NCBI GenBank assembly: GCA_022321325.1 | Contig: JAKOEO010000005.1 | Location: 38,122 to 85,551, forward strand | Source: Candidatus Magnetominusculus sp. LBB02 | Lineage (GTDB): Bacteria; Nitrospirota; Thermodesulfovibrionia; Thermodesulfovibrionales; Magnetobacteriaceae | Direction: 5' to 3' | DNA length: 47,430 nucleotides | Shown: positions 13,295 through 18,960 of the stretch, piece after piece | Layout: each line of letters opens with the position of its first letter | Position numbering within the stretch: position 1 is the stretch's first letter | Translations under genes and position numbers: made by a program | The notes under the pieces: model-generated | Told to the model about the DNA's origin: nothing | The model's input: the letters and a program-made list of their open reading frames with translations, nothing else | The model's database searches: none

Positions 13295-14311
13295 ATGTCA
13301 GCATCGGAGATGAAAGATCATTACGCAACGCTGGGCGTTGCCAAGGCCGCCAGTCATGACGAGATTAAAAAGGCGTACAGGAAGCTGGCGAGGAAGTGCC
13401 ATCCTGACCTGAATCCGGGAAGCAAGGAATGCGAGGTGAAATCCAGAGAGATAAACGAGGCATATGACATACTGGGAGACGAGAAGAAGCGCAAAGAATA
13501 CGACCAGGCAAGGCTCAATCCCTTTGGCACAGGCGGCAGGACGTTTAGCGCAAGGAATTTTGGGGGCAAGCGGAATGAGGCAGATTATGATTTCGGAGGA
13601 TTTGGAGACATATTCTCGGATGTGTTCAGATTCAACGCCAGAACTGACAGACATACTGCATCCCATGCGGCTGAAAGGGGCGGCGATGTGGCTTCTGAAA
13701 TGACGCTGACACTGAAAGAGGCATATACGGGCGTGACAAAGTCGCTCAACATAAGGCGCGACGAGGTCTGCGGGAGCTGCGGCGGAGGCATACAAAGCTG
13801 GACTTGCAGCGTATGCGGCGGTACAGGCGCTGTTTCCTCATCTAGTACGATGAAAGTCAAAATCCCGGCGGGCGTTGACACCGGCAGCAAGGTAAGGCTG
13901 CGTGGCAAGGGCGGCGTCTCAGGCGGTTTTGCCGGGGATGTAGTCATTGAAATCAAGGTCTTGCCACATCCTTTATTCAAAAGAAAGGACAATGATCTTT
14001 ATATAGATCTGCCGGTAACATTTGCTGAGGCCGCTTTAGGGGCAAAGATAGAGGTGCCGTCGCTTGACGGCGCCGCTGTGATGACCCTTCCCGAGGCAGC
14101 GCAAAGCGGCAAGGTATTCAAACTAAAAGGCAAGGGAATGCCGCTTCCTAAGGGTGGCGGATATGGCGATTTATATGTTGAGGTGCAGGTTGCCGTCCCA
14201 AAGAAGCTGACGAAGAGACAGAGGGATCTGATAAAGGGCCTTGATGAGTTATACGAGGAAAACGTCAGAGATGGCCTTGAGAATCTGTCCAAGGGGGAGA
14301 AAGATGAGTAA
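13295..14311 (+). CDS. dnaJ: DnaJ-family co-chaperone with a half zinc finger
   Basis: A 338-residue Hsp40. The J-domain covers residues 8-72 with HPD at 36-38, the motif that stimulates ATP hydrolysis by DnaK. A Gly/Phe-rich linker (about 77-115) follows, then a client-binding region. Standard DnaJ has four CxxCxGxG motifs holding two zinc ions; this protein has only two CxxC pairs, C159/C162 and C171/C174, so at most one zinc site. The two C-terminal beta domains (from about 186, KVKIPAGVDTGSKVRLRGKG) are intact. It therefore sits between DnaJ and CbpA. It delivers unfolded proteins to DnaK and, given the operon, probably to ClpB for disaggregation. A GAGGG ribosome binding site precedes the ATG. 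The hspR ATG overlaps its stop by eight bases. Being one of possibly several DnaJ paralogues, the symbol denotes family. Confidence 0.88.
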   Translation: MSASEMKDHYATLGVAKAASHDEIKKAYRKLARKCHPDLNPGSKECEVKSREINEAYDILGDEKKRKEYDQARLNPFGTGGRTFSARNFGGKRNEADYDFGGFGDIFSDVFRFNARTDRHTASHAAERGGDVASEMTLTLKEAYTGVTKSLNIRRDEVCGSCGGGIQSWTCSVCGGTGAVSSSSTMKVKIPAGVDTGSKVRLRGKGGVSGGFAGDVVIEIKVLPHPLFKRKDNDLYIDLPVTFAEAALGAKIEVPSLDGAAVMTLPEAAQSGKVFKLKGKGMPLPKGGGYGDLYVEVQVAVPKKLTKRQRDLIKGLDELYEENVRDGLENLSKGEKDE

Positions 14312-14660
14312 GAGGGATGATAGCAGCCGTCCGCTTTATGTAATCAGCGTAGTGGCGGAGATGTTTGACCTCCACCCCCAAACGCTGCGGCTCTATGAAC
14401 GGGAGGGGTTTATCGCTCCGGCGAGGCAGAATAACCAGCGCAAGTACTCGGACGAAGACTTAAAGCAGCTTGAGTTTATAGTTGACCTGACAAGAAAGCT
14501 GGGCGTAAACAAGGCCGGGCTTGAGATAATCATGGACATGCGCGGCAGACTTGACGCGATGCGTAAGGAGATGGAGGGGATTATGGATTATCTTGAGGAA
14601 GACACAAAGAGGCATTTCCAGAACAGACTGCAAGAGATATTTTATGGTGATCGCAGATGA
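14304..14660 (+). CDS. hspR: HspR-like MerR-family heat-shock repressor
   Basis: A 118-residue MerR-type regulator. The N-terminal winged helix is [20 protein letters not shown] followed by [10 protein letters not shown] and a [12 protein letters not shown] helix; the C-terminal half (ALGV-like [17 protein letters not shown], then a Lys/Glu-rich helix) forms the dimerising coiled coil. HspR proteins repress dnaK/dnaJ/clpB operons and sense heat shock through DnaK. The location between dnaJ and clpB is the classical arrangement in actinobacteria and in several other phyla. The frame is open upstream to 14241, but I choose ATG 14304 because GGGGGAGA lies just before it and MSKRDD is a natural start. 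It overlaps dnaJ by eight bases and its stop overlaps the clpB ATG. Confidence 0.9.
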
Positions 14661-17275
14661 TGGACAAGCTGACGATAAAAAGCCGCGAGGCCCTCAGAGA
14701 CGCCCAGTCAATTGCCGGTGGCAAGGGCAATCAGGAGCTTCAGCCTGAGCACCTGCTCTTTGCCCTGACAGCGGACAAAGAGGGCACGCCGACGCTGATT
14801 CTTGCAAAGGCGGGCGCAAACACTGATAGATTAAGGGCAGAGCTTGATGAGGCAATAGACAGATTTCCAAAGGTATCGGGGGCGCAGCCCATGGGACACC
14901 TATACCTGTCTACAAAGCTGAGGGATGTCTTTGACGAGGCAGAGGCAAGGGCTGCGCACATGGGCGACGAATATGTCAGCGTTGAACACCTGCTATTGGG
15001 CTTATGTCATAAGGGTGGCAGCGCTTCTGAACTCCTGCTTGCCCACGGCGTCAATAATGATACGCTTCTTGCCGCTATGATGGTATTCAGAGGGACGCAG
15101 CGCGTGACGGACGAAAGCCCTGAAGAGAAATATCAGGCGCTGAAGAAATATGGACGAGACCTCAGCGCCCTTGCCGCCAAAGGGAAGCTTGACCCGGTCA
15201 TAGGCAGAGACGAGGAAATCAGGAGGGTAATACAGGTACTTGCCCGAAGGACAAAGAACAATCCTGTGATAATAGGAGAGCCTGGCGTTGGCAAGACGGC
15301 CATAGCAGAGGGGCTGGCCGGGCGCATAGTGGCAGGGGATGTGCCGCAGACGCTGAAAGACAGAACTGTCGTGGCGCTTGATTTGGGGGCGCTTGTTGCG
15401 GGTGCAAAGTACAGGGGGGAGTTTGAGGACAGGCTCAAGGCGGTAATAAAAGAGGTTGAAGGCTCCTCGGGCAAGATTATCCTGTTTATAGACGAGCTGC
15501 ATACGCTTGTCGGGGCTGGGGCCTCAGAGGGCGCAATGGATGCCGGCAATATGCTTAAGCCGGCCTTGGCGCGTGGCGGGCTTAGGTGTATCGGGGCTAC
15601 GACGCTCGATGAGTACAGGAAATATATAGAGAAGGACTCGGCCTTAGAGAGGCGTTTTCAGCCGGTTTATATCAAAGAGCCTACGGTTGCCGATACTATA
15701 TCAATCCTGAGGGGACTTAAAGAACGCTATGAGATTCACCACGGGATTAAATTTAAGGACTCCGCCCTGATAGCCGCCGCAGTCCTGTCAAACCGCTACA
15801 TTGCGGACAGATTTCTGCCGGACAAGGCAATTGACCTGATAGACGAGGCTGCCTCGAAGCTGCGCATGGAGATGGACAGTATGCCTGCAGAGCTTGATGA
15901 GTTGCACAGACGCGTGCGGCAGCTTGAGATTGAACGCGAGGCGATGAGGCGGGAAGACTCTGATGAGGCGGCCCGGCAGCTTGAGAAATTAGAAAGCGCT
16001 ATCGTTGAACTTATTGACAAGCGCGACGAACTTCACAGCCGCTGGGCAGCGGAGAAAGAAATTCTCTCCACAATCAGAAAGATAAAAGAGCAGATTGAAG
16101 ATGCAAGGACAGAGGCGGATGCAGCAGAACGCGAGGGCAGCCTCACCCGTGCCGCGGAGTTGAAATATGGCCGCCTCATTGAGCTTTCCAAGTCACTGGA
16201 AGAGGAAAACCGCCGACTTCAGAGCTGGCAGTCTAACAGCAGGATGCTCACAGATGTAGTAACCGAGGAAGACATCGCCTGGGTAGTGTCCAAGTGGACG
16301 GGCATTCCCATGCTGAGGATGCTTGAGGCGGAGGTGGACAAACTAATCCACATGGAAGACCGGCTGCGTCTGCGCGTAGTCGGCCAGCCCGACGCGGTGC
16401 AGATGGTATCAAACGCGGTAAGACGGGCAAGGGCGGGGATTCAGGACCCAAACCGCCCAATAGGTTCGTTTATATTCTTAGGGCCAACCGGCGTAGGCAA
16501 GACCGAGCTTGCGAGGGCGCTTTCAGAGTTTCTCTTTGACGATGAGAATGCCTTAAGGCGCATAGACATGTCCGAGTATCAGGAAAAACATTCGGTATCT
16601 CGCCTGATTGGCGCCCCTCCGGGCTATGTAGGCTATGACGAGGGCGGGCAGCTTACGGAGGCAGTAAGGAGGCGGCCATACAGTGTTGTCTTGTTTGATG
16701 AGATAGAAAAGGCGCATCCAGAAGTGTTTAACGTACTGTTGCAGCTGCTTGACGACGGCAGGCTCACTGACGGGCACGGCAGGACAGTGGACTTTAGAAA
16801 CACCGTTGTTATAATGACCTCAAACATAGGAGGTTCATATATCCAGGAGCATTTGCAAAACCCCGATTTACGCCATGATGAGAGCGGCGTCAGGACAAAG
16901 GTCATGGCAGAGCTGCGGGCGATTTTCAGGCCGGAGTTTCTCAACAGGGTGGACGAGATAATAATCTTCAACCCGCTGACTAAAGACCTGATAAAGCGCA
17001 TAGTGGATATTCAGCTTTATAGAATGAGACGGTATCTGAAAGACAAGCACATAGACATAATGCTTTCAGAAAGGGCAAAAGAGGCAATTGCAGAGGCTGG
17101 TTATGACCCCGTCTACGGGGCAAGGCCGTTAAAAAGGGCGCTTCAAACGGAGATACTAAACCCATTGGCGCTGAAGATAATCGAAAAGTCAGTAAACGAA
17201 GGCGATAAGATACAGGTTGACTACGTCTACGGCAAGATGGTATTCTCATTAGTAGAAGTGGCGGGGTTGGAGTAG
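14657..17275 (+). CDS. clpB: ClpB protein disaggregase
   Basis: An 872-residue Hsp100 chaperone, full length. The Clp N-domain spans residues 1-145 ([13 protein letters not shown]). NBD1 has Walker A GEPGVGKT (207-214) and Walker [15 protein letters not shown]. The ClpB-specific middle domain, a long coiled coil rich in Glu/Arg, lies between about 410 and 525. NBD2 has Walker A GPTGVGKT (609-616), Walker [12 protein letters not shown] and the sensor-2 region [13 protein letters not shown]. No ClpP-docking IGF loop is evident, as expected for ClpB. Together with DnaK/DnaJ it threads aggregated proteins through its hexameric pore. It starts at ATG 14657, overlapping the hspR stop; the ATG at 14660 is an equally possible start. 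It is the last gene of the heat-shock operon, unless the following PAS gene is co-transcribed. Confidence 0.97.
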
Positions 17276-17294: not shown

Positions 17295-17921
17295 ATGGCA
17301 GAAGGGAAATTATTCTATAATCGCTTATATGACAGACTGACGGATGTTTTTTTTCAAACAGACACAGATGGCAGGGTGATGTTTATATCTGATTCCATCG
17401 GGAGATTGACAGGTTTCAGTCTCGATGAGATAAAATTAAGAGGAATGTTTAGGGAATTATTTGCAGACCCAGGCCAGGCGGCGGGGTTTATTGATTCTCT
17501 AAATGAAAAGGAAAGCGCAGAGGATGTTGAGCTGCTTATGAAAACACACAGTGGTGTCCCGCTATGGGTGTCGGTAAGTGCATATTATTTCAGGGACAAT
17601 GGCTCGCCGACTATCGGCGGCACGGCAAGGGACATAACAAAATATAAAGAATGCCGGGATGACTACGAACTGCTTAGACAAAGATGCCAGAAGACGGCAG
17701 GGCTTGCGCATGAATTAAATAACCAGCTGACAGCCGCCTCTCTGAATATACAAATAATATCTCAGAGACTGGACTCATCTTCAAGGTCGGAGGCCATTAC
17801 GCAAAAACTCGAAACTCTGCAGAGAAACATTGACAATGCCGTCTCAATGGCAAAACAGATGTTAGCGATTCCGGTGGCCGACCCCGCAGGGGTAAGTTTC
17901 GCAGGCAGGTATATCGGATGA
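17295..17921 (+). CDS. PAS domain protein with histidine H-box but no ATPase domain
   Basis: A 208-residue protein. Residues 10-118 form a PAS domain (DVFFQTDTDGRVMFISDSI, then GGTARDITKYKE). Residues 125-200 form a HisKA-like helical hairpin with AGLAHELNNQL, placing the phospho-acceptor at H139. A normal sensor kinase would continue with a HATPase domain carrying N, G1, F and G2 boxes; here the frame stops at 208 after LAIPVADPAGVSF and none follows in the 46 bases before the next gene. It cannot phosphorylate itself, so it may be a phosphotransfer partner, a dimerising inhibitor of another kinase, or a truncated kinase. GGGGGG precedes the ATG and clpB ends 19 bases upstream. The next gene is a response regulator, its probable partner. 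Confidence 0.8.
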   Translation: MAEGKLFYNRLYDRLTDVFFQTDTDGRVMFISDSIGRLTGFSLDEIKLRGMFRELFADPGQAAGFIDSLNEKESAEDVELLMKTHSGVPLWVSVSAYYFRDNGSPTIGGTARDITKYKECRDDYELLRQRCQKTAGLAHELNNQLTAASLNIQIISQRLDSSSRSEAITQKLETLQRNIDNAVSMAKQMLAIPVADPAGVSFAGRYIG

Positions 17922-17967
17922 GAAAAATCCAACTAACAAGTTTGTCAGGATAAAGGAGAGTGAAATA

Positions 17968-18624
17968 GTGAAAAAAGTTCTCATCGCAGACGACAACGCC
18001 GAACTAAGAGAGACCATAGCCGAGGTGCTGAAAGAAGCGGGGTATTATACAGAATTTGCAGTTAACGGCAAAGAGGCTGCTGCAAAGGCTGCAGAAACTG
18101 ATTTCGACGTCGTGCTATTAGACATGCTTATGCCGGTTATGAAGGGGGCAGAGGCGCTATCGGAAATAAAAAAGACAAGGCCATCAACCAGGGTAATCGC
18201 AATGACCGCGTTTTCAACAATGGAAAACGCAGTTGAGACAATAAAAAGAGGGGCGTCTGACTATATCTCAAAACCTTTTAAAATTGAGCAGCTGCTTATG
18301 GTGGTGCGCCGCGAGATAGAAGAGCTTGGATTTGAAAGCGATACTGTTAACATTGATCTTGACCGCACTATGAACTGCCTTGCCAACCCGATCAGGCGCA
18401 ATATCATTAAACTCCTTCACCGTAACAAAGAGATGCGTTTTATGGAACTCAACAGGGAACTCGCCATGGATGACCACACAAAGCTAGTCTTTCATTTAAA
18501 AATCCTTAGAGAAGCCGACATTTCCACTCAGGACAAAAACAAGAACTACATGCTGACCCAAGAGGGATTGCGGGTGTTTCAGTGCCTTATGCTTATTGAG
18601 AACTATCTTTCGCCTCGCCAATAA
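17968..18624 (+). CDS. Response regulator with ArsR-like winged-helix output
   Basis: A 218-residue response regulator. Residues 1-118 are a complete receiver: D8, D9, phospho-acceptor D52 (VVLLDMLMP), T80 and K102 (SKPF). Residues about 123-218 form a winged-helix domain resembling ArsR/archaeal-type regulators: CLANPIRRNIIKLLHRN, then the recognition helix region MDDHTKLVFHLKILREADI and the wing NKNYMLTQEGLRVF. That output domain is uncommon in bacterial response regulators, which usually carry OmpR, NarL or NtrC types. The start is GTG at 17968 with AAGGAGAG before it. It probably acts with the ATPase-less PAS/H-box protein upstream. The target genes are unknown; the adjacent stress operon is a candidate by position only. 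Confidence 0.85.
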   Translation: MKKVLIADDNAELRETIAEVLKEAGYYTEFAVNGKEAAAKAAETDFDVVLLDMLMPVMKGAEALSEIKKTRPSTRVIAMTAFSTMENAVETIKRGASDYISKPFKIEQLLMVVRREIEELGFESDTVNIDLDRTMNCLANPIRRNIIKLLHRNKEMRFMELNRELAMDDHTKLVFHLKILREADISTQDKNKNYMLTQEGLRVFQCLMLIENYLSPRQ

Positions 18625-18634
18625 CGCCGCTTCG

Positions 18635-18666
18635 CGCCGCACGTGAATTATTATTCACATGCGGCG
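18635..18666 (+). terminator. Strong hairpin after the response regulator gene
   Basis: CGCCGCA (18635-18641) pairs with TGCGGCG (18660-18666), and GTGAA (18643-18647) with TTCAC (18654-18658), around a TTATTA loop, with one C/A mismatch. It begins ten bases after the stop codon. No T-tract follows, so it may be a weak terminator or an mRNA 3' end stabiliser. Confidence 0.55.
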
Positions 18667-18718
18667 TTCATTGGACAACAAGATTTATCTTGCATTGTGC
18701 CTTTATTTTCAATTAATG

Positions 18719-18960
18719 TATAAACAGGATATGGTGATGGAGAGACAAAGAATAGATAGAGTGATTACAAGAAAGGGGGCAGTTTATTTTCTTCCTTCCC
18801 TAAAAAAGCGCCTATGTACATTTGTATGGTGGTTTGCCTTAGAAACTTCCTCCCCTGTTTCGATAGGGGCGAGCCGCCACCCGTAAACTGCCCTCTCCCC
18901 CCCAAAAAAACGGAGGTCTGTCTTATCTCGGGAGGTAAGACAGACCTTTTTAATTTTTTT
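18719..18960 (+). ncRNA. Candidate structured non-coding RNA upstream of lexA
   Basis: No convincing protein is encoded between 18625 and 19006. Instead there is a 13-base-pair helix, AGGGGGCAGTTTA (18774-18786) with TAAACTGCCCTCT (18884-18896), one G-U pair. Inside are GGTGG/CCACC (18828-18832/18877-18881) and a seven-pair hairpin CCCCTGT-TTCG-ATAGGGG (18852-18869) closed by a UUCG tetraloop. The stretch ends in a textbook terminator (18914-18960). A -10 TATAAA at 18719-18724 with a weak -35 (TTGTGC, 18 bases upstream) would start the RNA near 18731, giving about 215 bases. Length and overall long-hairpin shape recall 6S RNA, but I cannot align it to that or another family, so its identity is open. 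Confidence 0.5.
18914..18960 (+). terminator. Rho-independent terminator before lexA
   Basis: AGGTCTGTCTTA (18914-18925) and TAAGACAGACCT (18936-18947) form a perfect 12-pair stem with a 10-base loop, followed by TTTT, AA and a run of T. It insulates lexA from upstream transcription. On the minus strand the stem is followed by CCG and seven T, so it could act in both directions. Confidence 0.93.

Follow-up and report, generated by a model that had tools for sequence, protein, structure and literature searches.

The cognate histidine kinase of a response regulator found in every genus of one family of magnetotactic Nitrospirota has been dismantled more than once within that family while the regulator persists, and in Candidatus Magnetominusculus and related genera comparative sequence analysis identifies a previously unlisted family of structured RNA associated with this regulator. 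The window, which is the whole 47,430-nt stretch of DNA analysed, comes from a 3.47-Mb draft genome of the genus Candidatus Magnetominusculus (Nitrospirota). Among its closest relatives are Candidatus Magnetominusculus xianensis HCH-1 (G007), MYbin6 (G001), nDJH8bin6 (G006) and nDJH5bin4 (G003), all Nitrospirota. Comparisons covered eight genomes of the window genus (g1) and, at family level, 20 genomes from seven genera. We consider it probable, though well short of certain, that the locus was formerly a classical two-component pair, in which a stub deleted for its ATPase domain would now serve as a kinase-dead partner and the regulator would control the RNA encoded downstream. More tentatively, and with somewhat less than even confidence, the regulator and an RNA with an anti-Shine-Dalgarno loop may form a conserved unit that outlives its kinase, the latter having been taken apart repeatedly and surviving in one genus only as a dead, PAS-gated phosphatase or docking partner.

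Origin and retention of the kinase stub

The stub (17295..17921, + strand) encodes 208 aa, in which domain searches, alignment and AlphaFold delimit a PAS domain (aa ~7–116), and a DHp domain (aa ~128–191, with His139), followed by a frame-shifted tail that closes with RYIG*. PAS_9 was matched at aa 18–116 (E=1.3e-11) and HisKA at aa 134–190 (E=6.8e-5), the latter just below the Pfam cut-off (23.3 against 26.9 bits). The chain stops 17 residues past the DHp domain, the next gene is only 46 nt away and no HATPase_c or CA domain was found in the ORF, hence the stub is not classed as a histidine kinase; nor was a relocated or split-off close copy of the ATPase domain found across the window's genome. 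The AlphaFold model shows a PAS fold, a two-helix hairpin (115–161, 165–191) and a disordered tail, with no degenerate CA-like fold of the Spo0B/ChpT type following the hairpin. Assignment to DHp rests on the HisKA match, on this hairpin and on the alignment of H139 (codon 17709..17711, + strand, within the H-box AHELNN) in five species, where H139, E140, N142 and N143 are invariant across stubs and full kinase. Both ORFs of the pair lie exactly where the sequence-only reading had placed them, and the first is, as stated there, a PAS protein with an intact H-box and no HATPase domain. A search for the pair in relatives, which that reading had proposed, recovered it in five of eight genus genomes, and the orthologues in four other species rule out chance as its source.

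At the same locus MYbin6 carries a full 349-aa PAS-HisKA-HATPase kinase (HATPase_c E=6.8e-28), which makes the stub a truncated kinase rather than a member of a separate ATPase-less family. Stubs of 197–217 aa, ending shortly past the DHp domain, occur in the window, nDJH8bin6, HCH-1 and nDJH5bin4, and all but nDJH8bin6 have the RYIG* junction in common. In the window a 15-nt fossil of the ATP lid (17908..17922, + strand; nt 856–870 of the MYbin6 CDS; shuffle P=0.006) lies out of its original frame and is the source of the new stop. Longer fossils of 45–46 nt are present in HCH-1 (MYbin6 CDS nt 846–890) and nDJH5bin4 (859–904), both with shuffle P<0.0005. The shared junction and frame-shifted fossil show that a single, old internal deletion of ~230 bp, with a change of frame, produced the stub in the ancestor of most Magnetominusculus species; in nDJH8bin6 either the fossil was subsequently lost as well or the domain was lost separately. 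MYbin6 forms the deepest branch of the genus in both the regulator tree and the concatenation tree, and both alternative placements tested were rejected (AU <1e-7). The earlier suggestion that a full-length kinase in a close relative would mark a recent truncation therefore holds for truncation and fails for its recency, as the shortened form is common to at least four species and has been retained. In three further genomes nested inside the genus (G002, G004 and G005), dnaJ, merR and clpB are present and both stub and regulator are missing after clpB; searches of these incomplete genomes for the regulator found none.

Purifying selection has retained the stub, as judged from codon comparisons. 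In two sister pairs that split after the deletion, omega was 0.21 (0.10–0.35) and 0.39 (0.26–0.57), clearly below 1 in PAS and DHp alike. The frame has stayed open across dS of ~1 or more in four lineages, where a neutral frame of 192 codons would escape a stop with a probability of ~0.001–0.04 per lineage, varying with divergence. Constraint on the stub is weaker than on the regulator (pN/pS 0.40–0.66 against 0.05–0.22) and the PAS domain of the nDJH5bin4 stub is not recognisable in Pfam, hence slow decay is possible. It would mean that the regulator is independent of a kinase and that the stub is simply disappearing, as the kinase fossils of a related genus (g2, below) already are. This fits the independent erosion of kinases elsewhere in the family (G016 and G014 with fossils, genus g3 with a regulator that has no kinase beside it, and G002, G004 and G005 with both genes lost), the faster evolution of the stub and the loss of the H-box proline at residue 144, which is Pro in the full-length kinase only and Gln or Leu in each stub. 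We nevertheless regard it as rather unlikely, given the open frames, the omega values and the invariant H, E, N and N; moreover, true fossils lose these residues together with one pocket Asp of their regulator, and the stubs and their regulators do not.

A role as kinase-dead phosphatase or docking partner is plausible by analogy, given the H-box Asn and Glu that are kept and the precedents for phosphatase activity in isolated DHp domains. The Asn or Thr at H+4 that characterises EnvZ-type DHp phosphatases is represented by N143, invariant in five species, from which the activity is predicted. In CrdS, kinase activity alone depends on the H+1 Glu, and phosphatase activity alone on the H+4 Asn (PMC3510030), and for EnvZ and NtrB the DHp domain alone is sufficient for phosphatase activity, as that paper relates from earlier work (PMC3510030, its refs 16, 17). 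The stub shares the HExxN motif with the DHp domains of EnvZ, NtrB and CrdS; it differs in that the EnvZ and NtrB fragments were engineered, whereas its own ATPase domain was lost naturally and its H-box proline replaced. This replacement (P144 to Q or L in every stub) counts against the model we prefer, since the equivalent change in CrdS, P376A, reduced both kinase and phosphatase activities (PMC3510030). Under that model the internal deletion in the ancestor of most Magnetominusculus species cost the kinase its ATP-binding domain and left a PAS-DHp stub under selection, which would still dimerise and dock on the regulator and would be unable to autophosphorylate. It would most likely act on the regulator as a phosphatase or phosphate sink gated by PAS, the regulator being charged by another kinase or by acetyl phosphate.

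Alternatively, the stub could be a phosphotransfer relay, in which the ATPase domain of another kinase phosphorylates His139 in trans, as a heterodimer or phosphorelay, and the phosphate passes to Asp52 of the regulator. Both His139 and Glu140, which phosphorylation requires, are invariant across stubs, and about 100 kinase-like matches in the genome offer possible donors. Spo0B and ChpT are kinase-derived phosphotransferases without kinase activity, as the stub would be. Yet they keep a degenerate CA-like domain that the stub lacks, and no close paralogue of the kinase occurs in the genome (next best 31–37% identity), making a relay distinctly improbable.

The response regulator and the erosion of its kinase

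The downstream gene (17968..18624, + strand) encodes, from domain and profile searches, a response regulator with a receiver (aa 4–113, Asp52) and a winged helix (aa ~134–205). Response_reg was matched with E=1e-29, and D8, D9, D52, T80 and K102 are all there, as in every copy from the window genus. The output domain passes the DUF7347 cut-off (38.1 against 27.6 bits) and lies just under the curated cut-offs of HTH_20 (26.7 against 27) and ArsR HTH_5 (19.9 against 22), so that by curated score the window regulator falls outside ArsR/SmtB, while some sister copies fall within it. By profile its nearest solved structure is 2p4w of the ArsR family (E=7.7e-5), which we take to be the archaeal heat-shock regulator Phr; a fold search with the whole model, whose receiver part is poor, returned generic response regulators only. 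These results agree with the earlier description of a complete receiver joined to a winged helix of ArsR or archaeal type, the ArsR cut-offs being narrowly missed. The output domain resembles those of ArsR/HTH_20 and DUF7347 winged-helix proteins and of archaeal REC-wHTH regulators, and departs from the ArsR family in being fused behind a receiver and in scoring under that family's own cut-off.

Each of the seven genera of the family has regulators of this type; across the order they were detected at a strict threshold in 15 of 85 genera, and they are thinly spread in the phylum. Many distant orthologues across the order adjoin a complete kinase, about 480 aa long, that carries the motif AHEINNPLT. 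Within the family, genus g3 has the regulator without an adjacent kinase, and genus g2 has kinases without PAS in two species and kinase fossils in two others (G016 and G014; 101 aa and 81 aa), in which the His has become Thr or Arg. The regulators of these two fossil-bearing species have each lost one pocket Asp (D8T, D9N), whereas the pocket is intact in the window genus, hence the two routes offered by the sequence-only reading, phosphate from a separate source and phosphorylation-independent action, may both exist in the family. Full kinase, ATPase-less stub, DHp fossil with a lost His, orphan regulator and complete loss form a natural series, which allows one to ask what a regulator does once its kinase dies.

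A predicted structured RNA and its candidate control

Past the regulator gene by 146 nt begins a block of ~130 nt, absent from the sequence-only reading, whose conservation far exceeds that of the genes surrounding it on the 3' side of the regulator. Conservation and covariation point to a structured small RNA (18770..18898, + strand) with a 12-bp closing stem, an unpaired conserved core CCUUCCCUAAAAAAGCGCCUAUGUAC and an inner hairpin with a C-rich loop. An intrinsic terminator predicted from sequence, a 17-bp hairpin and a T run, follows at 18912..18949 (+ strand), and a terminator follows the RNA in g1. The block is also present in MYbin6, where the next gene is not lexA, and it lies directly after the regulator in genera g3 (94% identity over 33 nt) and g4, where the flanking genes differ. 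The core reads CCU[U/A]CCCUAAAAAAGCGCCUAUGUAC in g1 and g3, and the loop of the inner hairpin always includes CUCC (UUCCUCCCCU in g1, UACCUCCAU or GACCUCCAU in g3, AAUCUCCCC in g4 and UUUCUCCUUC in g2). Members of the family, found with a conserved promoter palindrome, are the window (18770–18949) and loci L140, L141, L142, L143, L139, L241, L242 and L243.

The alignments used were model-based. A covariance model built from g3 alone matched g1 (E~1e-7) and g4 (1e-5) and no other regulator locus in 407 kb. Among 12 sequences, 24 of 33 pairs showed compensated changes and 96% of cells were paired, against 44–50% when the structure was slid, in an alignment fitted to the structure and hence biased towards it. 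The z-scores ranged from -2.8 to -4.3, and the secondary structure is thus conserved with compensatory changes, as expected of a structured non-coding RNA. Searches of the window and of locus L143 returned no Rfam 15 family above its gathering score. Weak model matches beyond the family and in G013, G012, G002 and G004 (E about 0.009–0.8 per genome) were rejected as chance, since they lacked the full structure or the operator where checked.

A putative promoter for the RNA was read from the sequence at 18690..18718 (+ strand; -35 TTGCAT, 17 nt, -10 TTAATG). It is weak in the window and shows a good consensus in G001, G014 and G018 (TTGTTT-17-TATAGT or TACAAT). Sequence comparison places a palindromic element AAGATTTATCTTG, a candidate operator for the regulator, at 18680..18692, overlapping the -35 element. 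Its form AA[GC]ATTT[AC]TCTTG, again overlapping a -35-like element, lies 5' of 12 of 13 RNA copies, and among 242 loci the 13-mer was confined to RNA promoters, bar an additional copy in G014 and a single unrelated match. The additional copy (L241:3902-3914) is a second operator-promoter unit, which precedes the RNA by ~1 kb and is followed by no RNA of its own. In G016, whose regulator has a damaged pocket, the operator at the RNA is degraded. A further palindrome, GTGAATTATTATTCAC (18643..18658), follows the regulator gene; a near-palindrome is kept there in g1 and g4, and similar palindromes stand after the regulator in distant orthologues. Palindromes like TGTGAATTGTTCTTCACA also lie between distant, RNA-less regulator orthologues and the next gene (L197, L201 and L202), and possibly represent an ancestral autoregulatory site.

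Of the 14 family genomes with this regulator clade, whole-genome searches recovered the RNA in 13, and they found it in none of the six without the clade (Fisher P=1.8e-4, uncorrected for kinship). The regulator is more faithfully tracked by the RNA than by the kinase across family genomes. From linkage, co-occurrence and the shared candidate operator we infer that the regulator controls the RNA. It would bind the palindrome AAGATTTATCTT at a promoter just 3' of its own gene and thereby control the ~130-nt RNA, which would expose its C-rich, anti-Shine-Dalgarno-like loop and probably act in trans on the translation of target mRNAs. Two observations count against this model: no RNA was found in the genome of G008, which has both regulator and kinase, and in g2 the RNA and its promoter are located away from the regulator gene, which also indicates that the RNA is a stand-alone gene. 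The g2 arrangement would suit an alternative in which regulator and RNA are merely neighbours by descent, both belonging to the circuit of another regulator. We judge this unlikely, because the two co-occur so closely and were lost jointly in G002, G004 and G005, because they adjoin each other in three genera whose flanks otherwise differ, and because the palindrome is conserved at the RNA promoter even when unlinked to the regulator.

Response regulators that control small RNAs are known, such as OmpR with MicF and GacA with RsmZ. The window regulator resembles these in being a DNA-binding response regulator with a site, here a candidate, at the promoter of a stand-alone small RNA. The RNA itself differs, as it matches no family of Rfam 15 and has a C-rich loop instead of GGA motifs. 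It adds an unlisted structured family to the magnetotactic Nitrospirota, and its candidate promoter, operator and regulator lend themselves to tests with a few DNA fragments. It is highly improbable that the block is instead a small protein gene (LKKRLCTFV motif), since, despite an ORF in frame in g1 and g3, the variable codons of its only long frame are all nonsynonymous (nine in g1 and ten in g3, 19 against 0 synonymous), a pattern that rules out this reading, third positions are conserved in the core, the g4 frame lacks a start codon and compensatory pairing is strong.

Genomic setting of the locus

Upstream of the pair lie, in order, a dnaJ-like gene (13295..14311, + strand; Pfam DnaJ and DnaJ_C), first in a probable operon, a MerR-family regulator that is hspR-like by position (14241..14660, + strand; MerR_1 E=6e-14) and clpB (14657..17275, + strand), of which 19 of the 20 family genomes have an orthologue and which ends 20 nt 5' of the stub. 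This order is orthologous in all eight genus genomes showing the locus (in part in MYbin6). The pair does sit after heat-shock genes, as had been noted. The stress-related control once read from that location is weakly founded, the position after clpB being specific to Magnetominusculus and no HspR (HAIR) inverted repeat being found within the window.

Several other features were observed around these genes. Two additional ORFs, one with a PIN domain, separate clpB from the stub in nDJH5bin4 (L184:5034-6304) and HCH-1 (L183:7605-8866) and look like a toxin-antitoxin-type pair. In nDJH5bin4, clpB is present as two overlapping frames (L184:2308-4949), possibly through a frameshift or sequencing error. 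Another regulator and kinase-like pair lies close to clpB in G005 (L181:4373-6306), a species that has lost the window-type regulator. Elsewhere in the window's genome, five REC matches with identical scores are spaced 1262 bp apart (G000:C142:62296-67691) and four kinase matches, likewise identical in score, 1093 bp apart, with truncated REC pieces (G000:C93:8481-12413); these arrays are either tandem duplications or assembly repeats.
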